Positions 2,388 to 16,628 of a DNA stretch of 20,865 nucleotides are shown piece after piece (positions within the stretch are counted from its first letter, which is position 1; each line of letters opens with the position of its first letter). Both the position numbers and the translations under genes were made by a program. The notes beneath the pieces are model-generated. The model was not told where the DNA came from, ran no database searches, and was given only the letters and a program-made list of their open reading frames with translations. Location of the stretch: IMG/VR virus record IMGVR_UViG_3300009495_000105, positions 1-20,865 of that record, one strand, 5' to 3'. This DNA is from a virus.

Positions 2388-4739
2388 ATGGCTGAAAGAA
2401 TTGTAAGTCCTGGCGTATTTACAAGAGAAAAAGACCTCTCATTCTTACCTGTTGGTATTGGTGAGATTGGAGCTGCTCTTATCGGACAAACCGTAAAAGG
2501 GCCTGCTTTCGTACCAACGAGAGTTGAGTCTTTTAACGAGTATCAACAAAAATTTGGTGGTCTTACCGAAGATTCATACCTTCCGTATACCGCTCAATCG
2601 TATTTAGAAGAAGCTGGTGCTGCAACTATCGTAAGAGTGTTGGGGTCTGCTGGTTATACCGCTAACCCAATCGCATTGGTGATGTCATCATCTGCTGGTC
2701 AAAAAGTTGCCGCTCTTCTACACCCAACAACAACTACAAATGGTGGTGATTTTACTAAATCAGTAGTTGAAGCTCCATATAGTGCTTCTGCGTTCCAATT
2801 GGCGTTGAGTGGTAGTTCTATAAGTAACACTAGCGTAACTGCGTCATTGACTCCATCTGATTCAAATTACATTACTAAAGTATTTGGATACGCTCCTAAA
2901 TCTTCTAAAGTAGCATACACAATGTTGAACTTCTCAACATTCCAATCTGCGTCTATGGCAGCTCCGTATGATACATCATCTTATGGAACTCCAAAGCTCA
3001 CTATTGTAACTGCTTCTGTTGACTACACTAAAGCTTATTCTGAAGCATCAACTCCATGGGTTAAGTCTCAAAAGGTGGCAGGTGTAGCAAGAAACTTATT
3101 TAAGTTACACACGCTATCACATGGTACAGCTACTAACTACGAATTTAAAGTAGGTATCCGTGACATCAAACCAGCTTCAGAGGTGCCAGGTTCTGAATAT
3201 GGTACATTTAGTGTAATTGTTAGAAGAGTAGATACTGAAAAGATTCCTAACTCAATTTTCGGTCAAGGTATTAGTGATTCAGATACTAAACCAAATATTG
3301 TAGAAGAATTTACAGGCCTCAACCTTGACCCTAATTCTCTAAACTACATTAAGAGAGTAATTGGTGACAAATACATTACTGTTGACGCTAATGGTAAATT
3401 ATCGACCAATGGTGACTATGACAATGGTTCGGTTCACATTCGTGTAGTAGTTGATTCTGATGTAGACGCTGGTTCTATTGACTCAACACTTGTTCCATTT
3501 GGGTTTGGTGCTTTGACCTCACCGCTTAGTAGTACATACACAGTACCTAATCCAACTTACAATGTATCACAATCACTTTCAGGAGAATACAACAAGAGAG
3601 TATTCTTGGGATATGATTTTGACTTTGTAAATACTGATAACTTAAACTTCTTGATGCCAACACCAGATGCTAATAGTACACTTGTTGGTTCTGATTTTGA
3701 TTTGGCAGATTGTCACTCAAATGGTTCATCAATCACATTAACTTCAGATATCGATGCTAAGAAATTCATCGTACCTTTCCAAGGTGGTTTTGATGGGTGG
3801 GAGCCGAATCGAGTAGTTCTAACAGGAACTAACATTCTTCCAGGAAACACTCAAGGTTTAGATTGTACTAACGCAACATCTGCCGGTACGGTTGCTTATA
3901 GAAAAGCTATCAACGCAGTATCAAATCCTGATGAGTTTGACATCAATATGGTTGTGACTCCAGGTATCATCAATAGACTTCACTCTTCAGTTACCACATT
4001 CGCTAAAGATATGTGTGAAGATAGATTGGATTGTTTCTATGTAATGGATGGTGGTGCATATGGTGACTCAATCAATGTGGTTGTTAATTCATTGACTTCG
4101 TTTGATTCTAACTATGTTGCTACTTACCATCCTTGGTGTAAAATTCTTGATACCAATAAGAACAAACCAGTCTGGGTTCCGCCAAGTGTTGTACTTCCTG
4201 GTGTAATTGCATTTAGTGATTCAGTAGGTGCTGAATGGTACGCTCCTGCCGGTTTAAATCGTGGTGGACTTCCAAACGTAATTGAAGTTGAGACTCGTTT
4301 AACTCACGATGAGAGAGATACTCTATATACAAATAGAATCAACCCAATTGCTACGTTCCCAGCACAAGGTGTGACTGTATTCGGTCAAAAGACACTTCAA
4401 GCTAGACCATCGGCTTTGGATAGAATCAATGTTCGTAGATTGTTAATCGCAGTGAAGAAATACATCGCATCTTCAACAAGATACTTGGTATTCGAAAACA
4501 ACACCGCTGCTACAAGAAACCGCTTCTTGTCAATCGTGAACCCATACTTGGAATCAATCCAACAAAGAAATGGTTTGTACGCATTCCGTGTAGTAATGGA
4601 TGATTCAAATAACACACCGGATGTGATTGATAGAAACATTATGGTAGGGGAAATTTACTTACAACCAGCCAAGACTGCTGAATTCATTGTACTTGACTTC
4701 AACATTCTTCCAACTGGCGCTGCATTCCCAGAGGCATAA
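2388..4739 (+). CDS. gp18: Contractile tail sheath protein, T4 gp18-like
   Basis: A 783-residue protein. The sheath contracts on infection and drives the tube through the host envelope. The N-terminus (SPGVFTREKDLSF, then GAALIGQTVKGPAFVPT, a hallmark of sheath N-terminal arms) and the conserved C-terminal domain from about residue 650 (INPIATFPAQGVTVFGQKTL, then INVRRLLIAVKKYI, TRYLVFENN and the terminal YLQPAKTAEFIVLDFNI) are characteristic of gp18-family sheaths. The length exceeds T4 gp18 (659). The extra mass is in the variable central part (about residues 100-500), where sheaths carry surface domains; it is Ser/Thr/Asn rich. A strong TTAGGAG ribosome binding site and an upstream TATTTATA element suit a very abundant protein. 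It is followed by the tail tube gene, the usual sheath-tube order. Confidence 0.96.
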   Translation: MAERIVSPGVFTREKDLSFLPVGIGEIGAALIGQTVKGPAFVPTRVESFNEYQQKFGGLTEDSYLPYTAQSYLEEAGAATIVRVLGSAGYTANPIALVMSSSAGQKVAALLHPTTTTNGGDFTKSVVEAPYSASAFQLALSGSSISNTSVTASLTPSDSNYITKVFGYAPKSSKVAYTMLNFSTFQSASMAAPYDTSSYGTPKLTIVTASVDYTKAYSEASTPWVKSQKVAGVARNLFKLHTLSHGTATNYEFKVGIRDIKPASEVPGSEYGTFSVIVRRVDTEKIPNSIFGQGISDSDTKPNIVEEFTGLNLDPNSLNYIKRVIGDKYITVDANGKLSTNGDYDNGSVHIRVVVDSDVDAGSIDSTLVPFGFGALTSPLSSTYTVPNPTYNVSQSLSGEYNKRVFLGYDFDFVNTDNLNFLMPTPDANSTLVGSDFDLADCHSNGSSITLTSDIDAKKFIVPFQGGFDGWEPNRVVLTGTNILPGNTQGLDCTNATSAGTVAYRKAINAVSNPDEFDINMVVTPGIINRLHSSVTTFAKDMCEDRLDCFYVMDGGAYGDSINVVVNSLTSFDSNYVATYHPWCKILDTNKNKPVWVPPSVVLPGVIAFSDSVGAEWYAPAGLNRGGLPNVIEVETRLTHDERDTLYTNRINPIATFPAQGVTVFGQKTLQARPSALDRINVRRLLIAVKKYIASSTRYLVFENNTAATRNRFLSIVNPYLESIQQRNGLYAFRVVMDDSNNTPDVIDRNIMVGEIYLQPAKTAEFIVLDFNILPTGAAFPEA

Positions 4740-4783: not shown

Positions 4784-5272
4784 ATGGCACAATTACTTGA
4801 CCCAAATGAAATTATGTTCACCAACTTTGAACCTAAAATGTCCAATAGGTTCATTATGTACATCGAGGGAATCCCTGCGTACTTGGTGAAAACGGCTGCC
4901 AGACCTGAAATCCAAAATGGTAAAGTGACTATCGACCATATCAACACTCGTAGATATGTAAAAGGTCGTTCTGAATGGCAAGACCTTTCAGTAACTCTTT
5001 ACGACCCAGTAGTTCCATCTGCTGCACAAGCAGTAATGGAGTGGGTACGTTTACACCACGAATCAGTAACAGGCCGTGATGGTTATTCTGACTTCTACAA
5101 AAAAGAAATCGTATTCAACAGTTTGGGTCCTGTTGGTGATAAAGTAGAAGAGTGGACATTGAAAGGTGCTTTTGTACAATCGGCTAAATTCTCTGATATG
5201 GATTACGCTGGTGAAGATTTGGCAACAGTAGAATTGACACTTACTTACGATTACGCTATCTTACAATACTAA
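4784..5272 (+). CDS. gp19: Major tail tube protein, T4 gp19-like
   Basis: A 162-residue protein, almost the same length as T4 gp19 (163). It polymerises as stacked hexamer rings on the tape measure to form the DNA channel inside the sheath. Typical features are the N-terminal segment PKMSNRFIMYIEGIPAYLVK, the IDHINTRRYVKGRSEWQDLS strand-loop, and a C-terminal strand AEDLATVELTLTYDYA-like pattern (here GEDLATVELTLTYDYAILQY), all seen in gp19-family tubes. It starts after a strong AGGAG site, lies directly downstream of the sheath gene, and ends shortly before a strong terminator at 5306. Confidence 0.95.
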   Translation: MAQLLDPNEIMFTNFEPKMSNRFIMYIEGIPAYLVKTAARPEIQNGKVTIDHINTRRYVKGRSEWQDLSVTLYDPVVPSAAQAVMEWVRLHHESVTGRDGYSDFYKKEIVFNSLGPVGDKVEEWTLKGAFVQSAKFSDMDYAGEDLATVELTLTYDYAILQY

Positions 5273-5711: not shown

Positions 5712-5732
5712 TATTTATATGTGGTTAACCAA
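5712..5732 (+). promoter_or_regulatory. Late promoter element with GGTTAACC palindrome, copy 2
   Basis: TATTTATATGTGGTTAACCAA differs from the copy at 5343 at only two positions. It lies between the terminator at 5662 and the AAGGAAAG ribosome binding site of the gp26-like gene (ATG 5752). The element overlaps the upstream ATG at 5719, which argues that 5719 is not the real start. Confidence 0.55.
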
Positions 5733-5751: not shown

Positions 5752-6621
5752 ATGGCAGATTTACAAGATGATTACAAACTATCCGATAAGGATGTTGCTG
5801 AAAAGTTGAGAGCTCAACACGAGGTTCAACAAGTTCGTGATTACAAATTCCCAACTGAAATTATTGACCTACCATCAAGAGGATTAATTTATCCAACAGA
5901 CAACCCACTTTCAAGTGGTAAGGTAGAAATGAAATATATGACTGCAAAGGAAGAGGACATCCTCACAACACAATCATATATTAAAGATGGGTCGGTACTT
6001 GACCGACTATTCCAATCCCTAATCGTATCTAATGGTGAAGGTGTTGCTATTAAATACGTTGATTTAGTAGTTGGTGATAAAAACGCAATTATGATTGCTG
6101 CACGTGTGCTGGGTTATGGTAAAGACTATGAAGTTGAAGTAACCGACCCATTTACAGGTAATAAACAAAAAGAAACCATTGACCTTACTCAATTTGAAAA
6201 TAAAGAGTACGATGGTTCAGCACAAATTGCACCAAATGTTAATGAATTTCAATTCACACTCCCACGTTCTAACCGAGAAATTACTTTTATGGGTATGACT
6301 GAATCAAAAGAACGTAAGGTAAAACATCAAGTTGATGAACTCAAAAAGGCAAATCGTAAATTAAAAGATGAGACCTCAAGAGAATTAACAACTCGTTTAA
6401 AAACTATGATTCTTTCAGTAGATGGTCAAACTGAACAAAAGGTAATTAATCACTTTGTTGATAATGAGTTGTTTGCAGTAGATTCAAAAGCACTTCGTGA
6501 CTATATTTCACAAACTCTTCCTGATATTGACCTTACTTGGGAATTTATTTCAGAGGAGACTGGCGAAGGGAGGGAAATGTCCTTGCCAATGGACACGAGC
6601 TTTTTTTGGCCTAACTCTTGA
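5752..6621 (+). CDS. gp26-like baseplate hub / tail assembly protein (frame 0)
   Basis: A 289-residue protein with the conserved opening of the T4-like gp26/T4_baseplate family: FPTEIIDLPSRGLIYPTDNP (residues 33-52), then a Lys-Met-Thr-Ala-Lys-Glu-Glu-Asp run (KYMTAKEEDILTTQSYI), a LDRLFQSLIV helix and LVVGDKNAIMIAARVLGYGKDYE. The zinc-type cysteines I would expect in many relatives after GKDYE are absent. A charged helix lies around residues 184-215. The start at 5752 is chosen because AAGGAAAG precedes it and the longer start at 5719 lies inside the promoter element. The gene occupies the slot between the tail tube and the tape measure, where many phages encode tail assembly chaperones made by frameshifting. 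It ends in SFFWPNS at a T7 run, and a second frame continues the protein (see 6608-6817). Hub component versus assembly chaperone is unresolved. Confidence 0.8.
   Translation: MADLQDDYKLSDKDVAEKLRAQHEVQQVRDYKFPTEIIDLPSRGLIYPTDNPLSSGKVEMKYMTAKEEDILTTQSYIKDGSVLDRLFQSLIVSNGEGVAIKYVDLVVGDKNAIMIAARVLGYGKDYEVEVTDPFTGNKQKETIDLTQFENKEYDGSAQIAPNVNEFQFTLPRSNREITFMGMTESKERKVKHQVDELKKANRKLKDETSRELTTRLKTMILSVDGQTEQKVINHFVDNELFAVDSKALRDYISQTLPDIDLTWEFISEETGEGREMSLPMDTSFFWPNS
6601..6607 (+). other. Candidate slippery site T TTT TTT for +1 or -2 frameshift
   Basis: Frame 0 reads AGC TTT TTT TGG CCT AAC TCT TGA. Skipping one base (+1), or slipping back two (-2), gives TTT TTT GGC CTA ACT CTT GAT and opens the frame that continues to 6817. 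A -1 slip would read TTG GCC TAA and stop at once, so a simple -1 event is excluded. A homopolymer sequencing error (true T6) would also make one continuous gene. Confidence 0.6.
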
Positions 6622-6817
6622 TTATAGAAAGCATCTTCACTCTCACATTTTTGATTTGATTTATCACGGAAATGGTGGGTTTACATTCTCTGATGTTTAC
6701 AATATGCCTGTTTGGGCACGAAAGTTCTATATTAACAAGATTATAGAATTTAAACAAGAAGAGAAGAAGATTCACGATACTGAATCAGCTAAAATACGTG
6801 CTAAAACACGAAGATAA
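6608..6817 (+). CDS. Trans-frame C-terminal domain of the gp26-like gene (probable frameshift product)
   Basis: This frame encodes 69 residues beyond the T run, with protein-like character: YRKHLHSHIFDLIYHGNGGF, FSDVYNMPVWARKFYINKII, then a basic, charged tail. An aromatic/Gly-Gly-Phe segment followed by VYNMP and a basic helix is the kind of small helical domain found in phage tail assembly proteins. There is no ATG or GTG in this frame near the domain start. The nearest upstream ATG (6497) lies deep in the previous gene and would add an N-terminus that reads as out-of-frame noise (Cys-Pro-Cys, hydrophobic runs); a TTG at about 6650 would cut the domain and has no Shine-Dalgarno. Read with frame 0 by +1 shift the product would be 354 residues, or 355 by -2. 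It ends just before a terminator and upstream of the tape measure. Confidence 0.65.
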   Translation, partial: GLTLDYRKHLHSHIFDLIYHGNGGFTFSDVYNMPVWARKFYINKIIEFKQEEKKIHDTESAKIRAKTRR

Positions 6818-6824
6818 TGAAAGG

Positions 6825-6847
6825 CCCAACTTAAAGTTGGGTTTTTC
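6825..6847 (+). terminator. Rho-independent terminator after the gp26-like unit
   Basis: A 7-bp perfect stem CCCAACT/AGTTGGG with a TAA loop followed by TTTTTC. It starts 8 bases after the stop of the trans-frame, consistent with that frame being the real end of the gene. Confidence 0.88.
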
Positions 6848-7077: not shown

Positions 7078-9168
7078 ATGGCTGAAAAGTCTGGAGCAGA
7101 TTACGAGAAAGAATTAAGAAGCGCAAACGACTATGCTAGAAATCTAGCAAAGGAGTTTATGGAGCTGGATGGTATATCGGAGTCAACCCGAAAAAAAATG
7201 GCTGCGATGTCCCTCGAAATGAAGGGGCAGGCTGACATTGGCGACCAACTAAATACACTTATTGCTCAACGACAAAAATTCATTGAAGATGAAATAGCCG
7301 CAGGTCATACTATTAGTAAAGCCGCATTAGGCAGACTTGATAGTGAAATAAAATTACTTGAAAAAGCAAAAACTCAAAAGGATTTACAAGAGGAACTAAA
7401 AGATAATCTAAAAGATTCGGTTGGTTTAAATAATGAGTTTGTAAAAGCATTAACGAAGGGTGGTATTGTTGCTCTTGGATTATTGGTTCTGGCCAAAGTA
7501 GTAACATTCTTTACCGATGCAGTTAAACGTGGCATAGAACTTAACAAAACTTTAGGTTTAAATGTAAAGAATGCTGCTGTATTTGAAGGTAACTTACAAC
7601 GTGCACGACTATCGGTAGATGGTATGAAGCATGGTATGGATGCACTTACCAAATCAGCCGAAGAATTAGTAAAACAAACAGGTAACATTAATCTATCACC
7701 TGATTTGATTGCAAACGCAACTGAAATTTCAGGGCTTCTTGGTGATGATACATTAGGTGTGTCTCTTACAAGAAGTATTGAAAACGCAGGTGTAAACTCT
7801 GGCGAGTTAGCTGATAAGGTCAAAGACATGGCCAACGCATTGGGGGTTGATGCAACCTCTGGAATGGAAATGTTGGCGTCCAATCAAGGTATTCTTAATA
7901 GTATGACTGAAGAGCAGATGTTAAATCGTGCTAAAGAAGGTTTAATGATTAAGAAAATGGGTCTTGATGTTAAAAAGATGAATGACCTTGCATCTGAACG
8001 ATTGGATATTGAATCCTCACTTCGTGCAGAAATGAAACTTCAGATGTTCTCTGGTCAACAATTAAATATGCAAGCCCTTCGAGAGGCAAAGGCAAGAGGT
8101 GATGCTGCTGGTATCGCAATGGAAACTAAAAAGTTGATAGATACGTTGGGGCCTGCTTATGAAAGTAACGCCCAACTTCAACGTATTATTGCAGATGAAA
8201 CAGGATTCACCAAAGATGAAATTCAGAATGTGCTTAATGCTACCGAAGAACAAAAGAAACTTGATGAAGAGTTGTTGGAGCTTAGAAAACAAATGCCAGA
8301 AGCAACATTGGAAGATTTGGATGCTCAAAAGCAACAAGAAGCACAAACTGCTGCTACAATTTCTACCGTAGGTCAATGGGCTGCTGGTCTTGGTGCCGTA
8401 GCCGCCGCCTATCTTTTAATAAAAAAGTTTGGTGGTGGTTTAGGAAAACTAATGGGTGGTAAGGGTGGAAACCCGATTGCAAACTTTATCAAAGGATTTG
8501 GTAATAAGAAAGTTCTTATGGGTGCTGCTGCAATGGCATTAGTTGCCGGGTCACTATTCATATTTGGCGCAGCCGTAAAACAATTTATGGAAGTATCGTG
8601 GGATGCAGTCGCTATGGCAGTTGTATCTATGTTAGCTCTTGTTGGAGCACTTGCTCTTGTTGGTGCTATTATGAGTAGTCCTATTGGAGCAGGTGTACTT
8701 ATCGGTGCTGCTGCTATGTTAGTAATCGCAGCCGCATTGTTAGTTCTTGGTCTTGCAATTCAAGAAATCGCCAAAGGATTTGGAATGATGGGTGAACTTG
8801 GTAGCCAATTAATTGCATTAGTAATGATTGCTCCAGGTCTTATTGCACTTGCTGGTGTCTTTGCTCTATTGGGGGCATCTATGATACCATTTGCTATGGG
8901 ACTTGCATTTATTACACCATTCCTTCCTACATTATTGATTTTAGGTGCCATGTTACCATTAATTGCAGGTGCTCTTGGATTTGGTGGTGAAGGTGAATCA
9001 GAAGGTGCTGGTGGTGGTGCTAGTTCAGACCCATTATTGGATGAAATTAAAGGACTCCGTAGAGATATTCAGTCACAACCTGTTCAGATTGTTATTGATG
9101 ATAAAGTGGTGTCTCAAATGAATAAAAAGAATGTAAGAATGCAATCTTATAGAGATGGATTTAAGTAA
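7078..9168 (+). CDS. gp29: Tail tape measure protein, T4 gp29-like
   Basis: A 696-residue protein (T4 gp29 is 590). The tape measure fixes tail length and fills the tube before DNA passage. The composition is typical: an N-terminal charged helical region (residues 1-120), a first hydrophobic segment GGIVALGLLVLAKVVTFF (about 128-145), a long amphipathic helical middle (150-420), then a dense hydrophobic Ala/Gly/Leu region at about 422-640 with several membrane-like stretches, a Gly/Glu/Ser-rich linker, and a C-terminal VQIVIDDKVVSQMNKKN strand pattern common at tape measure C-termini, which bind the baseplate. The start has AAGGAG 6 bases upstream. The next gene starts directly after the stop. 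Hydrophobic segments could suggest a membrane protein, but the context and overall pattern favour a tape measure that may insert in the host membrane on injection. Confidence 0.88.
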   Translation: MAEKSGADYEKELRSANDYARNLAKEFMELDGISESTRKKMAAMSLEMKGQADIGDQLNTLIAQRQKFIEDEIAAGHTISKAALGRLDSEIKLLEKAKTQKDLQEELKDNLKDSVGLNNEFVKALTKGGIVALGLLVLAKVVTFFTDAVKRGIELNKTLGLNVKNAAVFEGNLQRARLSVDGMKHGMDALTKSAEELVKQTGNINLSPDLIANATEISGLLGDDTLGVSLTRSIENAGVNSGELADKVKDMANALGVDATSGMEMLASNQGILNSMTEEQMLNRAKEGLMIKKMGLDVKKMNDLASERLDIESSLRAEMKLQMFSGQQLNMQALREAKARGDAAGIAMETKKLIDTLGPAYESNAQLQRIIADETGFTKDEIQNVLNATEEQKKLDEELLELRKQMPEATLEDLDAQKQQEAQTAATISTVGQWAAGLGAVAAAYLLIKKFGGGLGKLMGGKGGNPIANFIKGFGNKKVLMGAAAMALVAGSLFIFGAAVKQFMEVSWDAVAMAVVSMLALVGALALVGAIMSSPIGAGVLIGAAAMLVIAAALLVLGLAIQEIAKGFGMMGELGSQLIALVMIAPGLIALAGVFALLGASMIPFAMGLAFITPFLPTLLILGAMLPLIAGALGFGGEGESEGAGGGASSDPLLDEIKGLRRDIQSQPVQIVIDDKVVSQMNKKNVRMQSYRDGFK

Positions 9169-11472
9169 ATGGCATTAAAAGATTTAAAATCAGACTTGTC
9201 TAAATTTAGAAGACCCGTTGAAAATCCACTTGTAGAAAAACCACGAGTGAATATTCCAAAATCTTCTAATCAGACCCCATTATCTCAATTTGTGGGTAAT
9301 ACCCCTGATGCGCCAAAGTCTCAAACAACAGCCCCTAAACAAGGTGTGACTCCAACAAAGTTTGATAATTCACCAAACTATTTGGGAGAAACATCGCCAA
9401 GTCAGTTTGATAACTCATCAAACTATTTGGGAGAAACTACTACAAAACGAATGTCTTTAGAAGAAAGATTCTTGGGACAAACTGAAACAACATTAGTTCA
9501 ACAAGGGGATAAATTCAAAGGTGAAACCGAAACGGCAAATATTACTCAAGGAGATAGATTTAAGGGTGAAACGACTCCTGGAGACTACTCCAATGCCGAA
9601 AAGTTCAAAGGTGAAACCACACCAACAGAACTAAAATTTACACAACAATTTTTAGGTGAAACAACACCAAAGCCAAGCAATCTTTCAGAAAAGTTTTTGG
9701 GTGAAACTAACCCAACCAAGATGAATTTAGAAGCAAGGTTCTTGGGAGAGACTGATATGCCGGATATGGTATTAGAAAGTCCATTTAAAGGTGAGACCAC
9801 TCCAACTAAAATGAATTTGGAAGCCGGATTTTTAGGTGAAACGACCCCAAGTACCTTTACATTTGACCCTAATCTACAAACCCAAGCAAAAGACCCTCAA
9901 TTTGTTGACTTTATTACAAATGATGATGCACGTGGATTTTCACCATTCCAACAACCAAAGAATAATTCTACTTTTGTTGGAGTAGACCCATCTCAAACTC
10001 AATTTGAGGGAGTTACCCCAATAACAGGTCAGTTTGTAATCAGTCAGTACAATGTATCAAAGCAAAATGATAGTGGATTGGGTAAATCATATACTGATAA
10101 TAGGTTAAACGAACTATATAATCGGTATAATCTAAAAGAAGATTCTTACAACTCATCAGTCTTCAAACAACCATTTATTTTGAGTGGTATTCAGAAAACA
10201 AATGGTGAGCCGGAACGAGTTGGTATAGGTTCGTTTTCATTCATCAGAGGGGGTGCTATTACATCCACGGCTAGAGCTGTAATTGACGCAGTAAGAGTGG
10301 GACAATTCCTTTTAACTCCTCGTGGTTTAATTTGGTCTTTGAAACAAGTAGGTATGCAGAGAAGCCAAACATATGGTAAAAAATGGAAACCAATTAATCT
10401 ACTTTCTAATATAGCAACCCAACATCTTGGTTTACGATTTGATAGACCTGGTGTTAAACCTATTGGTGATGAGACTTGGAAGTATAACCCAAATGCGTCT
10501 ATAAATGAAAGCCCATTGTTAAACACATATAATACATTTACATTGGGTGGTATAGGTATAGAGTCCGATATTTGGGTATTTAAGGCCCAAATCGGAGGAC
10601 CTGACTCATTCTATGGTATTGGTGCTAGCGCTCACACAAGAACCATAAATACTTTTACAAATTACAAAAGTGACTCTGTATTACCATTACCTACCATAAA
10701 AGATTATGAAGGTATTTCATATGGTACAATTTCAAAAATTGCAAATGGTAACGCACCATCAAAATACAAAGGTGATTTTAGAAATCTAAAAGATACATCA
10801 ATCCAAAAATCAGATTACACTCAAACAAATCGTAATAAAACCTATGGTTTGCCTGAAACATTTAAGACAAATGCCGAAAGAATCAGGCCGAGTAATTTTA
10901 GAGCAAGAACGGATAGTGTATACAACTCTGTATTTAATGCTAAATTACAAAATGATTTTGTACACCTATTCTTCGCATATGATACTGATGCTGGTACTCA
11001 AGACTCCGGTAAGATAATTCAATTCCGTTCTACAATCAATGGTGTAACTGAAACATTCTCACCAAGTTGGAATGGTATCAAATATCCCGGTCGTGCTGAT
11101 AAAGCATATATGTATAGTGAATTTGAGAGAACGCTTTCATTTAATTTCAAAGCATATGCATCATCACGAGATGATATGAAACAAATGTGGGAAAAGTTAT
11201 CAGAGTTGTCAAAACTTACAATGCCAACTTACGGAAGTGCATATTCTGGCCACATTTGTTACTTTAGATTGGGTCAACTTTGGGGTAATGGTACAACAGG
11301 AGTTCCCACTTTGATTACATCATTGACTTATACCATTCCTGATGATTTATCTTGGGATATCACCGAACAAGTTCCAATGGGTATTGATGTTTCAATTGGA
11401 TTAACATTATTGCCAGATACTATTTATAGTAGTGATAAAAACCACTATTCATTTTACGATACGTTGACATAA
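9169..11472 (+). CDS. Tube-initiator/baseplate protein with N-terminal 15-residue repeats (gp48/gp54-like, tentative)
   Basis: A 767-residue protein. It opens with MALKDLKSDLSKF, then a low-complexity region holding 11 consecutive units of exactly 15 residues with consensus [LK]GETTP...[KR]F (residues 72-236), plus two degenerate units before (42-71). Residues 270-580 form a polar domain with no motif I know. The C-terminal third (about 600-767) looks like a folded beta domain: FSPSWNGIKYPGRADKAYM, FERTLSFNFKAYASSRDDMK, a W/LSELSKLTMPTYG helix-loop, then ICYFRLGQLWGNG and LITSLTYTIPDDLSWDITEQ. Such an ending is seen in baseplate-proximal tube proteins. Its place directly after the tape measure and before a LysM-like baseplate gene matches tube-initiation proteins (T4 gp48/gp54), which are only about 320-364 residues, so the assignment is by position and fold impression rather than clear homology. 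The start abuts the tape measure stop. Confidence 0.6.
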   Translation: MALKDLKSDLSKFRRPVENPLVEKPRVNIPKSSNQTPLSQFVGNTPDAPKSQTTAPKQGVTPTKFDNSPNYLGETSPSQFDNSSNYLGETTTKRMSLEERFLGQTETTLVQQGDKFKGETETANITQGDRFKGETTPGDYSNAEKFKGETTPTELKFTQQFLGETTPKPSNLSEKFLGETNPTKMNLEARFLGETDMPDMVLESPFKGETTPTKMNLEAGFLGETTPSTFTFDPNLQTQAKDPQFVDFITNDDARGFSPFQQPKNNSTFVGVDPSQTQFEGVTPITGQFVISQYNVSKQNDSGLGKSYTDNRLNELYNRYNLKEDSYNSSVFKQPFILSGIQKTNGEPERVGIGSFSFIRGGAITSTARAVIDAVRVGQFLLTPRGLIWSLKQVGMQRSQTYGKKWKPINLLSNIATQHLGLRFDRPGVKPIGDETWKYNPNASINESPLLNTYNTFTLGGIGIESDIWVFKAQIGGPDSFYGIGASAHTRTINTFTNYKSDSVLPLPTIKDYEGISYGTISKIANGNAPSKYKGDFRNLKDTSIQKSDYTQTNRNKTYGLPETFKTNAERIRPSNFRARTDSVYNSVFNAKLQNDFVHLFFAYDTDAGTQDSGKIIQFRSTINGVTETFSPSWNGIKYPGRADKAYMYSEFERTLSFNFKAYASSRDDMKQMWEKLSELSKLTMPTYGSAYSGHICYFRLGQLWGNGTTGVPTLITSLTYTIPDDLSWDITEQVPMGIDVSIGLTLLPDTIYSSDKNHYSFYDTLT
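9292..9876 (+). repeat. In-frame 45-bp tandem repeat array (15 residues per unit)
   Basis: Eleven units with xG[EQ]T at residues 72, 87, 102, 117, 132, 147, 162, 177, 192, 207 and 222 of the 767-residue protein (from base 9382), with no break in the 15-residue period. Each unit ends in an aromatic residue (F or Y) before the next xGET, except the last. Two degenerate units, VGNTPDAPKSQTTAP and KQGVTPTKFDNSPNY, extend the register back to residue 42 (base 9292). Two units share TPTKMNLEA or NPTKMNLEA, pointing to recent duplication. Codons differ between units, so the array is protein-selected. Confidence 0.92.
11423..11430 (+). promoter_or_regulatory. TATTTATA element inside the 3' end of the 767-residue gene
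   Basis: A full match to the recurring element, 43 bases before the ATG of the LysM-like gene. Because it lies in coding sequence (codons for DTIYSS) it could be chance; the distance to the next start is like that of the other sites. Confidence 0.3.
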
Positions 11473-15404: not shown

Positions 15405-16628
15405 GTGAAGATAGTAGATACAAACGAAAGATTAAGAAAGCATATTGTCTCTCTCTCCGAGAAGGTGTTGGTATTTCCCATTCTAACAAGTTTGGAGAAA
15501 CACCCTCACCTTTCTCGTATATCGGCTATTTTAGTATCCGATGGGGTAACTGACCTCTTTGTCAATTATAACAACATAGACGCTAGCTGTGTAAGTGATA
15601 CGATAGATTTCAGCCCATTCAAAGAAGTATGGGTAGTAGGTCTGAAAGACTTTTTACATCACTATGAGTTCCTACCTAATATGTATGACCTTGAAATGGG
15701 TCTATTTCACGAAGCGAGAGACTTTGATGTAGAGGAGAAACCCATCTACACTATATTCAGAAGAAGAAAAGCACCCAAAGCAAACGACCTCATACCAATT
15801 TGGAAACACTACGAACAATTCCAAGAGTGGAAAACGAAGTGGGATAACCTCACTCCATCCAAATTCAGCCAACTATACCCCAAAGGGTACAATTGGATAG
15901 AGACGAGTGGGCTTCATACCCCAACGGGTATAGAATACACCCAATATAATATGTTGACTACAACTTCACGACCTTCAAATGCATTTGGTGGAGTTAACTA
16001 TGCCGCACTACCAAAAGATGGTGATGTTCGTAAGAGGTTTATATCACGATTTGAGGGTGGTAAATTATATCAACTCGACTTTGATGGGTATCACCCACGT
16101 TTGATTGGAAAACTTATAGGTGTAGACATACCATTGGATATAAAAGCACATAAATGGTTGGCTGACCAATATGGAGCAGACATCAAAGACGCCAAAGCAA
16201 TTACATTCCGACAATTATATGGTGGGGTGCAGGATGAATACAAGCATATTCCATTTTTCAGTAAAACTGCAGAGTATATTGATTCACTTTGGAGTGAGTT
16301 TTTACTAAAGAGAGAGGTATTTACCCCAATTTTTAAAAGAAAGATAAAATATCACCAAGATTTAAACAAAAATAAGCTATTTAACTACATTCTCCAATCC
16401 GTTGAGACCGAACGAAACATACTTATAATCGAGAAATTGTCTAAAATGAGATTATCTCAACAGTCCTTACCAATCCTATACACATATGACTCAATTTTGT
16501 TTGATGTTCATTCTGATGATGGTAATGACTATGTAAAAAAGATAAAAGAGGTGATGGAGATGGATGGATTCCCTACCGATGTAGAATTTGGTGACAACTA
16601 CAAAGATATGGTTAGGGTAAACCTTTAG
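15405..16628 (+). CDS. polA: Family A DNA polymerase, polymerase domain with degenerate exonuclease-like N-terminus
   Basis: A 407-residue replicative-type polymerase. In order: residues 20-110 look like a remnant of a DnaQ-type exonuclease fold without the D-x-E motif; 185-212 (TTTSRPSNAFGGVNYAALPK, then RKRF) match the Thr/Arg/Asn primer-binding motif; motif A is LDFDGYHPR (D225); motif B is KAITFRQLYGG (K264, F268, Y272); the Q-motif region is FNYILQSVETE (Q331); motif C is YTYDSILFD (D362). Both metal-binding aspartates are kept, so activity is likely. The steric-gate glutamate is replaced by H230, and the motif C Glu by S363. E. coli Pol I has 928 residues, so this is a compact form. GTG 15405 is the only usable start; an in-frame TAG lies 19 bases upstream. 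T4 itself uses a family B polymerase, making this gene unusual for a phage with a T4-like tail. Confidence 0.88.
   Translation: MKIVDTNERLRKHIVSLSEKVLVFPILTSLEKHPHLSRISAILVSDGVTDLFVNYNNIDASCVSDTIDFSPFKEVWVVGLKDFLHHYEFLPNMYDLEMGLFHEARDFDVEEKPIYTIFRRRKAPKANDLIPIWKHYEQFQEWKTKWDNLTPSKFSQLYPKGYNWIETSGLHTPTGIEYTQYNMLTTTSRPSNAFGGVNYAALPKDGDVRKRFISRFEGGKLYQLDFDGYHPRLIGKLIGVDIPLDIKAHKWLADQYGADIKDAKAITFRQLYGGVQDEYKHIPFFSKTAEYIDSLWSEFLLKREVFTPIFKRKIKYHQDLNKNKLFNYILQSVETERNILIIEKLSKMRLSQQSLPILYTYDSILFDVHSDDGNDYVKKIKEVMEMDGFPTDVEFGDNYKDMVRVNL

Follow-up and report, generated by a model that had tools for sequence, protein, structure and literature searches.

A probable +1 frameshift at phenylalanine codons in a gp26-like tail assembly chaperone gene of a T4-related virus

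Introduction

In a 20,865-base virus record (the whole stretch that was analysed, called the window below), a gp26-like gene ends at a TGA codon shortly after a run of seven T, and a protein-like reading of 69 residues continues past that stop in another frame. The question raised by this locus is whether the two readings are joined by ribosomal frameshifting into a longer second product, and if so, in which direction the ribosome slips. An earlier note on this DNA had proposed a +1 or −2 programmed frameshift by analogy with lambda G/GT, and had considered it unusual for a T4-like tail. The available portion of a review states that the G/GT arrangement is widely conserved “except T4”, with shifts of −1, −2 or +1 depending on the phage (PMC5009743), and gp26 and gp51 are described as hub assembly chaperones of T4 in excerpts of PMC3004832.

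Genomic context of the locus

Open reading frames and profile matches place the locus within a T4-type tail gene cluster (Table 1). The gp26-like gene lies between the tail tube gene and the probable tape measure gene, as was seen when gene order was compared in the window, Flavobacterium phage immuto, Mel-JY01, and SP-15; one small open reading frame stands between the extension and the probable tape measure gene. The latter showed weak BLASTP similarity to the annotated tape measure protein of immuto (E 3e-5) and to a hypothetical gene at the tape measure place in Mel-JY01 (E 1e-9), and family profile searches with it gave no convincing match. Among the isolates found, those nearest to the window phage were one Microcystis phage and one Flavobacterium phage. 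Cultured relatives include the Microcystis phage Mel-JY01, immuto, which is grown on strain LMO8, and SP-15, which is grown on Bacillus subtilis. The start of the gp26-like gene was picked from the N-terminus common to close relatives; a further in-frame ATG is present at 5719.

Table 1 Features of the tail gene cluster and of the candidate frameshift locus in the window
Feature	Position	Strand	Basis or remark
gp15 sheath stabiliser gene			PF16724 match
Sheath gene			Profile matches
Tail tube gene (upstream context)	4784..5272	+	phrog_4542, E 1.2e-25
gp26-like gene, short form (TAC-N), 289 aa	5752..6621	+	PF12322, phrog_150; ATG 5752
Slip site, frame-0 codons TTT TTT TGG (T7, then GG)	6601..6609	+	Preceding base C
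+1-frame extension, 69 residues and TAA	6608..6817	+	gp51-type C-terminal domain, as judged from profile comparison
Frame-0 stop TGA closing the short form	6619..6621	+	4 sense codons past the second slip codon
Terminator-like stem with T-rich tail	6819..6847	+	Consensus scan; directly past the extension stop
Probable tape measure gene (downstream context)	7078..9168	+	Position and weak BLASTP
Baseplate wedge gene			Profile match

Several further observations were made in the window. Between 5200 and 7200, eight terminator-like sites were counted on both strands, compared with 0.9 expected, and the tail genes there may be separated by terminators. The sequence TATTTATA occurs seven times (2004, 2343, 5712, 6850, 11421, and 19015 on the + strand, 12198 on the − strand), compared with 2.3 copies expected and with seven reached in 1 of 100 shuffles; several copies lie at most about 130 bases upstream of genes, e.g., of gp26, making it a candidate late promoter element, and its complement resembles the T4 late promoter core. 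A 407-residue open reading frame (15405-16628) matched phrog_17, a phage DNA polymerase family, in the C-terminal part only (926-1235 of 1445), and the polymerase may be split. The 767-residue open reading frame at 9169-11472 carries many FLGET/FKGET repeats in its N-terminal third and had no match in family profile searches. Rfam and tRNA searches gave no match.

Reading frames at the T run

On re-reading, the T run (6601-6607), the frame-0 TGA and the 69-residue reading in the +1/−2 frame were all found where the earlier note had placed them, as was the immediate stop after a −1 slip (TTG GCC TAA in the window). A terminator-like stem begins at 6819, directly past the extension stop (6815-6817). 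The predicted long form (TAC-NC) would comprise 354 residues after a +1 slip, and 355, with one more phenylalanine, after a −2 slip. The claim that the extension has no start of its own needs a correction: a formal GTG is present in the extension frame at 6497, and such starts are not conserved, as 78 of 240 relatives (described below) have no ATG, GTG or TTG in that frame upstream of the slip site.

An SD-like sequence with an in-frame ATG, GGAGGGAAATG, was noticed at 6569-6579, which is about 32 nt ahead of the run; 27 of 46 window-like representatives have GGAG at this place. The ATG may be an internal start like that of T4 gene 26'.

Relatives and their conservation

A scan of viral contigs returned at least 596 relatives, and among the 80 that were kept, TTTTTTTGGCC was present at the site in all 80. 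Sequences from viral-contig scans, named phages, and one metagenome-assembled genome (MAG) contig were pooled (366, of which 363 matched), and identical stretches as well as contigs ending less than 200 nt from the stop were removed, leaving 243 distinct loci. The site motif was fitted by 240 of these (52 gp26 clusters at 70% identity), a proportion that has to be read with the selection bias of retrieval patterns partly keyed on the slip region, one of which allowed TTC; the remaining three (L085, L086, L087) were read by hand, and L087 has a −1 extension. A scan of genome contigs yielded one relative, in a Flavobacteriales MAG record, and an SP-15-centred scan recovered SP-15 itself and no further relatives.

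The same T run and the same extension frame recur among the relatives, which was the alignment check that the earlier note had set. All 238 relatives (of the 240) that could be read to a stop have 65 or more open codons in the +1 frame, and the −1 frame is closed within 20 codons in 206 of 240 and open further in the other 34. After the second slip codon, the frame-0 stop follows at four codons in 163 loci, at six in 76, and at three in one. A single continuous gene was encountered in none of the 243 distinct relatives, the longest frame-0 reading being 291 residues.

In current records, the extension is left unannotated in immuto, is given in Mel-JY01 as a hypothetical gene of its own that begins with TTG upstream of the run, and contains a short annotated gene in SP-15. 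The records of immuto and Mel-JY01 seem to miss the frameshift.

Codon constraint and selection

Codon periodicity moves from frame 0 to the +1 frame at the T run. In window-like loci (84-88 distinct stretches), variability by frame-0 codon position was 0.32, 0.26, and 0.56 upstream of the run, and variability by +1-frame codon position was 0.29, 0.20, and 0.52 downstream of it. Both halves are under purifying selection: pN/pS across 77 representatives was 0.26 for gp26; for the extension region it was 0.20 in the +1 frame, which is without stops in these representatives, compared with 1.81 and 1.30 in the other two frames.

Of the 82 conserved degenerate columns in gp26, none is as constant in its codon as the slip phenylalanine, with TTT in 230 and TTC in none of 235 rows (the 240 loci minus identical genes, with 13 TTC TTT loci described below standing outside this count). 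Four other phenylalanine columns of gp26 use TTC in 16-46%, and the next column is a proline codon with its third base inside the overlap. In 0 of 240 loci is the run preceded by a T, though 35.9% of gp26 codons end in T, and 14 different codons are used before the run.

Variants of the slip site

The first two slip codons read TTTTTT in 199 of the 240 loci, TTTCTT in 31, TTTCTA in five, CTTTTT in three, and GCTTTT in two, so that codon 1 is TTT in 235 and codon 2 in 204. The motif UUU_Y, or CUU_U, is found at codon 1 or 2 in all 240, and together with the codon constraint this amounts to a slippery site conserved throughout these relatives. Thirteen further loci outside the 240 are exceptions to the codon-1 rule; they read TTC TTT TGG, keep UUU_Y, and have T before TTC in five cases (their source set held 20 loci, of which two were too short and one identical, leaving the 13, two with T7, and two with a separate gene). 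UUU_Y is likewise kept at the sites of SP-15 (UUU_UUU_CAC) and GXN1 (UUC_UUU_CGU). Since no variant lacks a UUU with U or C after it, tRNA-Phe could re-pair in the +1 direction at every one of these sites. A −1 tandem slip of the type X_XXY_YYZ does not fit the 240 loci, where T never precedes the run and the coding frame is +1. The choice between +1 and −2 left by the earlier note could thus be narrowed, from variant sites with short or broken T runs, to probably +1.

Search for frameshift stimulators

RNAalifold on 65 representatives predicted no pairs in any 60-nt window near the site, and single-sequence folding of 40 of 46 representatives showed no low folding energy just downstream of the site; the strongest dip, a modest one, was located 105-165 nt downstream (mean z −1.54 against mononucleotide shuffles). 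An SD stimulator was not consistent among window-like representatives, and the SD-like GGAG about 32 nt upstream is too far for SD stimulation by known spacings. The A-site codon is a sense codon (TGG in 235 of 240) and not a stop. Features of the E. coli AGGGGG UAU CUU UGA pattern, as given in excerpts of PMC8710568, were absent, with no stop in the A site and GGG abutting the run in only 50 of 240 loci. According to the same excerpts, ribosomes of Flavobacterium johnsoniae generally disregard SD sequences, yet many members of its class have the prfB frameshift (PMC8710568), and parts of PMC12421855 describe the prfB frameshift as weak in this species; from these data, the host context matters.

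Homology and predicted structure of the two halves

The N-terminal part matched PF12322 above the curated cut-off (E 5.6e-7, 29.9 bits, cut-off 24.5) and phrog_150 (E 4.4e-10). By profile comparison the extension is a gp51-type C-terminal domain: a profile of 38 extensions aligned with seven gp51 C-termini, two of them identical, at 96.5% hhalign probability (E 1e-9). Single sequences were less sensitive, the match of a single extension to the gp51 family phrog_634 being weak (E 0.047; four of 38 members at 0.05) and that of the SP-15 extension alone to gp51 not significant (hhalign 2.5%).

An AlphaFold2 model of the +1 fusion, built with 44 aligned rows, had a mean pLDDT of 88 with low values at residues 280-289, i.e., the junction; an earlier model that was built on a single sequence was of no use (pLDDT 37). 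Foldseek against viral proteins returned gp26-type matches, e.g., the SP-15 baseplate hub subunit (target TM 0.82), and nothing significant against solved structures (E 2.0); a profile search of solved structures gave no match at E 1. With VIA-align against solved structures, the HK97 tail assembly chaperone 2ob9 ranked first for the N-domain (rmsd 3.1 over 77 residues, covering residues 32-122 of the model; next row Z 3.9), and since its Z of 5.6 falls in the range where chance arrangements occur, this match was counted as supportive only.

Other arrangements in T4-related phages

Among ten named phages, eight have an out-of-frame extension in either direction, T4 has two separate genes, and ICP1 gave no match to gp26 or gp51. 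In T4, gp26 matches positions 10-236 of phrog_150 and gp51 matches 3-281 including the C-domain, which indicates that T4 holds the short and the long form as two genes. A T TTT TTC site with the extension in the −1 frame is present in P-SSM2, S-PM2, and KVP40, as well as in LR756511, and HTVC008M has T TTT TTT, also with a −1 extension. All 73 distinct cyanophage-type loci (80 minus two too short and five identical) read T TTT TTC; in 70 of them the −1 frame has 59-62 open codons, and in the other three it is still open where the contig ends, while the +1 frame of each of the 73 is closed no more than 21 codons from the stop. The earlier view that a frameshift here would be unusual in a T4-like tail needs qualifying, as cyanophages, HTVC008M, and KVP40 carry a −1 site at the same place.

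The −1 form in T4-likes was probably known already, as −1 poly-T signals in T4-like TAC-N genes are cited after Vladimirov 2022 in the accessible text of PMC12846349; the title of Vladimirov et al. 2022 hints that T4-like phages use some mechanism other than frameshifting. Excerpts of PMC3037559 describe gp51 of cyanophage and marine vibriophage origin as short of about 200 N-terminal residues, and a −1 frameshift would account for these missing N-termini. No description of a +1 form in T4-related phages was found in the open-licence papers searched.

Two relatives (L392 and L402, at about position 3223 in each) have an extension that begins with a separate ATG directly past the gp26 stop, and the old slip position reads TTC TTG TAT in L392, with no UUU_Y left, and TTC CTT TGG in L402. 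An extension with its own start had been named as a refuting case; it does exist in these two, which are nested inside the +1 frameshifting clade beside TTTCTTT relatives and look derived. In a tree of 89 selected rows, the three modes were grouped, with four changes compared with 24.9 in shuffles, and the order of events is unsure owing to long branches at T4, SP-15, GXN1, LR756511, and KVP40. The two genes of T4 may replace an older frameshift, a point that the tree is too weak to prove.

It appears somewhat more likely than not that the direction of frameshifting flipped between lineages in one orthologous phage gene at the same two phenylalanine codons. T4-likes of cyanophage, pelagiphage, and vibriophage type would shift −1 (U_UUU_UUY), and a large lineage to which Flavobacterium and Microcystis phages belong would shift +1 (UUU_Y, with no stop, no nearby SD, and no RNA structure in sight). 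The switch may be the base that precedes the run; in T4 and in one or more other branches, separate genes take the place of frameshifting.

Proposed mechanism and alternative explanations

What is established here is that there are two reading frames and that both are conserved, that the slip codons are constrained, and that each half has homologues. Slippage itself, its +1 direction, its frequency, and its function we infer from sequence analysis, and with a probability of about 0.83 we read the locus as a lambda G/GT-like T4-type tail assembly chaperone pair produced by +1 frameshifting on tRNA-Phe. Most ribosomes would read gp26 through to the frame-0 TGA and release the short form. In a minority, peptidyl-tRNA-Phe on a UUU of UUU_UUU_U would move ahead by a single base and pair again (from UUU to either UUU or UUC), one U would be skipped, and reading would resume at GGC CTA ACT and run to the TAA at 6815, so that the long form would gain the gp51-type domain. 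If lambda G/GT is taken as the model, the tape measure protein would be bound through the N-domain, subunits of the tail tube would be brought in by the added domain, and the ratio of the two forms would be low and fixed.

A −2 slip of the ribosome on the T run, inserting one extra phenylalanine, is the least improbable of the alternatives and still unlikely. It is consistent with the prevalence of TTT at both phenylalanine codons, which −2 requires, whereas one UUU would do for +1, and there is a precedent in phage Mu, for which a −2 frameshift is reported in the available portion of PMC5009743. Under strictly cognate pairing, 202 of 240 loci allow a −2 shift, in a test stricter for −2 than for +1; with first-base G-U pairing, as was allowed for CUU_U, the 31 TTTCTT loci are added, giving 233 of 240. 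It would, however, entail a middle-base mismatch at the 13 TTC TTT TGG loci and at the TTC TTT CGT of GXN1, a first-base mismatch at the two GCT TTT TGG loci, and a third-base mismatch at the five TTT CTA loci, and at each of these loci UUU_Y for +1 is present. Clades could differ, and −2 could operate in the window's own T7 clade. Slippage of RNA polymerase, by which some mRNAs would carry T6 and the fusion would be read without ribosomal frameshifting, is very improbable: the T7 run is kept in most relatives, as it would predict, yet the run falls to T6 (CTTTTTT), T5 (GCTTTTT) or T4 (TTCTTTT) or is broken (TTTCTTT, TTTCTAT) while the extension frame stays unchanged, which speaks against it. 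A run of seven T is also short for known transcript slippage.

Equally little probability is given to the extension being a gene in its own right, with translation that begins at a start of its own or depends on coupling. The annotations of Mel-JY01 and SP-15, the ATG just past the gp26 stop in L392 and L402, and the separate genes of T4 point in this direction. Against it stand the relatives without a conserved start, including 43 of 240 with no ATG, GTG or TTG either upstream of the slip site or within 20 codons past it, and a separate start leaves the fixed phenylalanine codons and the absence of T before the run unexplained. Homopolymer runs are error-prone, and a sequencing error or a decayed pseudogene was considered as well; the relatives refute both, to the point that their remaining probability is negligible, as no relative is fused in one frame and both halves are under purifying selection. 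A sequencing error is ruled out by the recurrence of the site in many assemblies and in four named phage records (Mel-JY01, immuto, SP-15, and GXN1).

Frameshifting in the +1 direction would explain both the unannotated extension of immuto and the separate hypothetical gene of Mel-JY01. The relatives supply, in their hundreds, natural versions of a minimal +1 site for work on forward slippage without the usual stimulators.

Comparison with known systems

The analogy with lambda G/GT holds in that the extension corresponds, by profile comparison, to a gp51-type C-terminal domain; the difference is that lambda shifts −1, whereas the extension of the window lies in the +1 frame on a phenylalanine run. 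Neither form of the lambda chaperone is retained in the virion. Forward shifts in tail or capsid genes are shared with the haloarchaeal virus HSTV-2, for whose tail chaperone a +1 shift is called “very likely” in the excerpted review (PMC5009743), and with Listeria phage PSA, which differs by slipping on a proline codon. Influenza A PA-X, for which parts of PMC3498833 describe a +1 shift at UCC_UUU_CGU with proof by mass spectrometry, is alike in its UUU_C slip and sense A-site codon and is nearly matched by the GXN1 site; it belongs to a eukaryotic virus and an unrelated gene, so that the likeness would be convergence at most. Phage 0305phi8-36 has, according to excerpts of PMC2147016, a two-gene tail chaperonin with a duplicated domain instead of a frameshift.

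The closest counterparts are the loci of cyanophages, HTVC008M, and KVP40, with the same gene, the same two codons, and the same C-domain, and with the difference that their extension is in the −1 frame. T4 differs in having two genes on opposite strands, whose products are homologous to the halves of the window gene. T4 is the named exception to the rule of tail-chaperone frameshifting in the consulted part of the review (PMC5009743), and is set here against eight of ten named phages with an out-of-frame extension.
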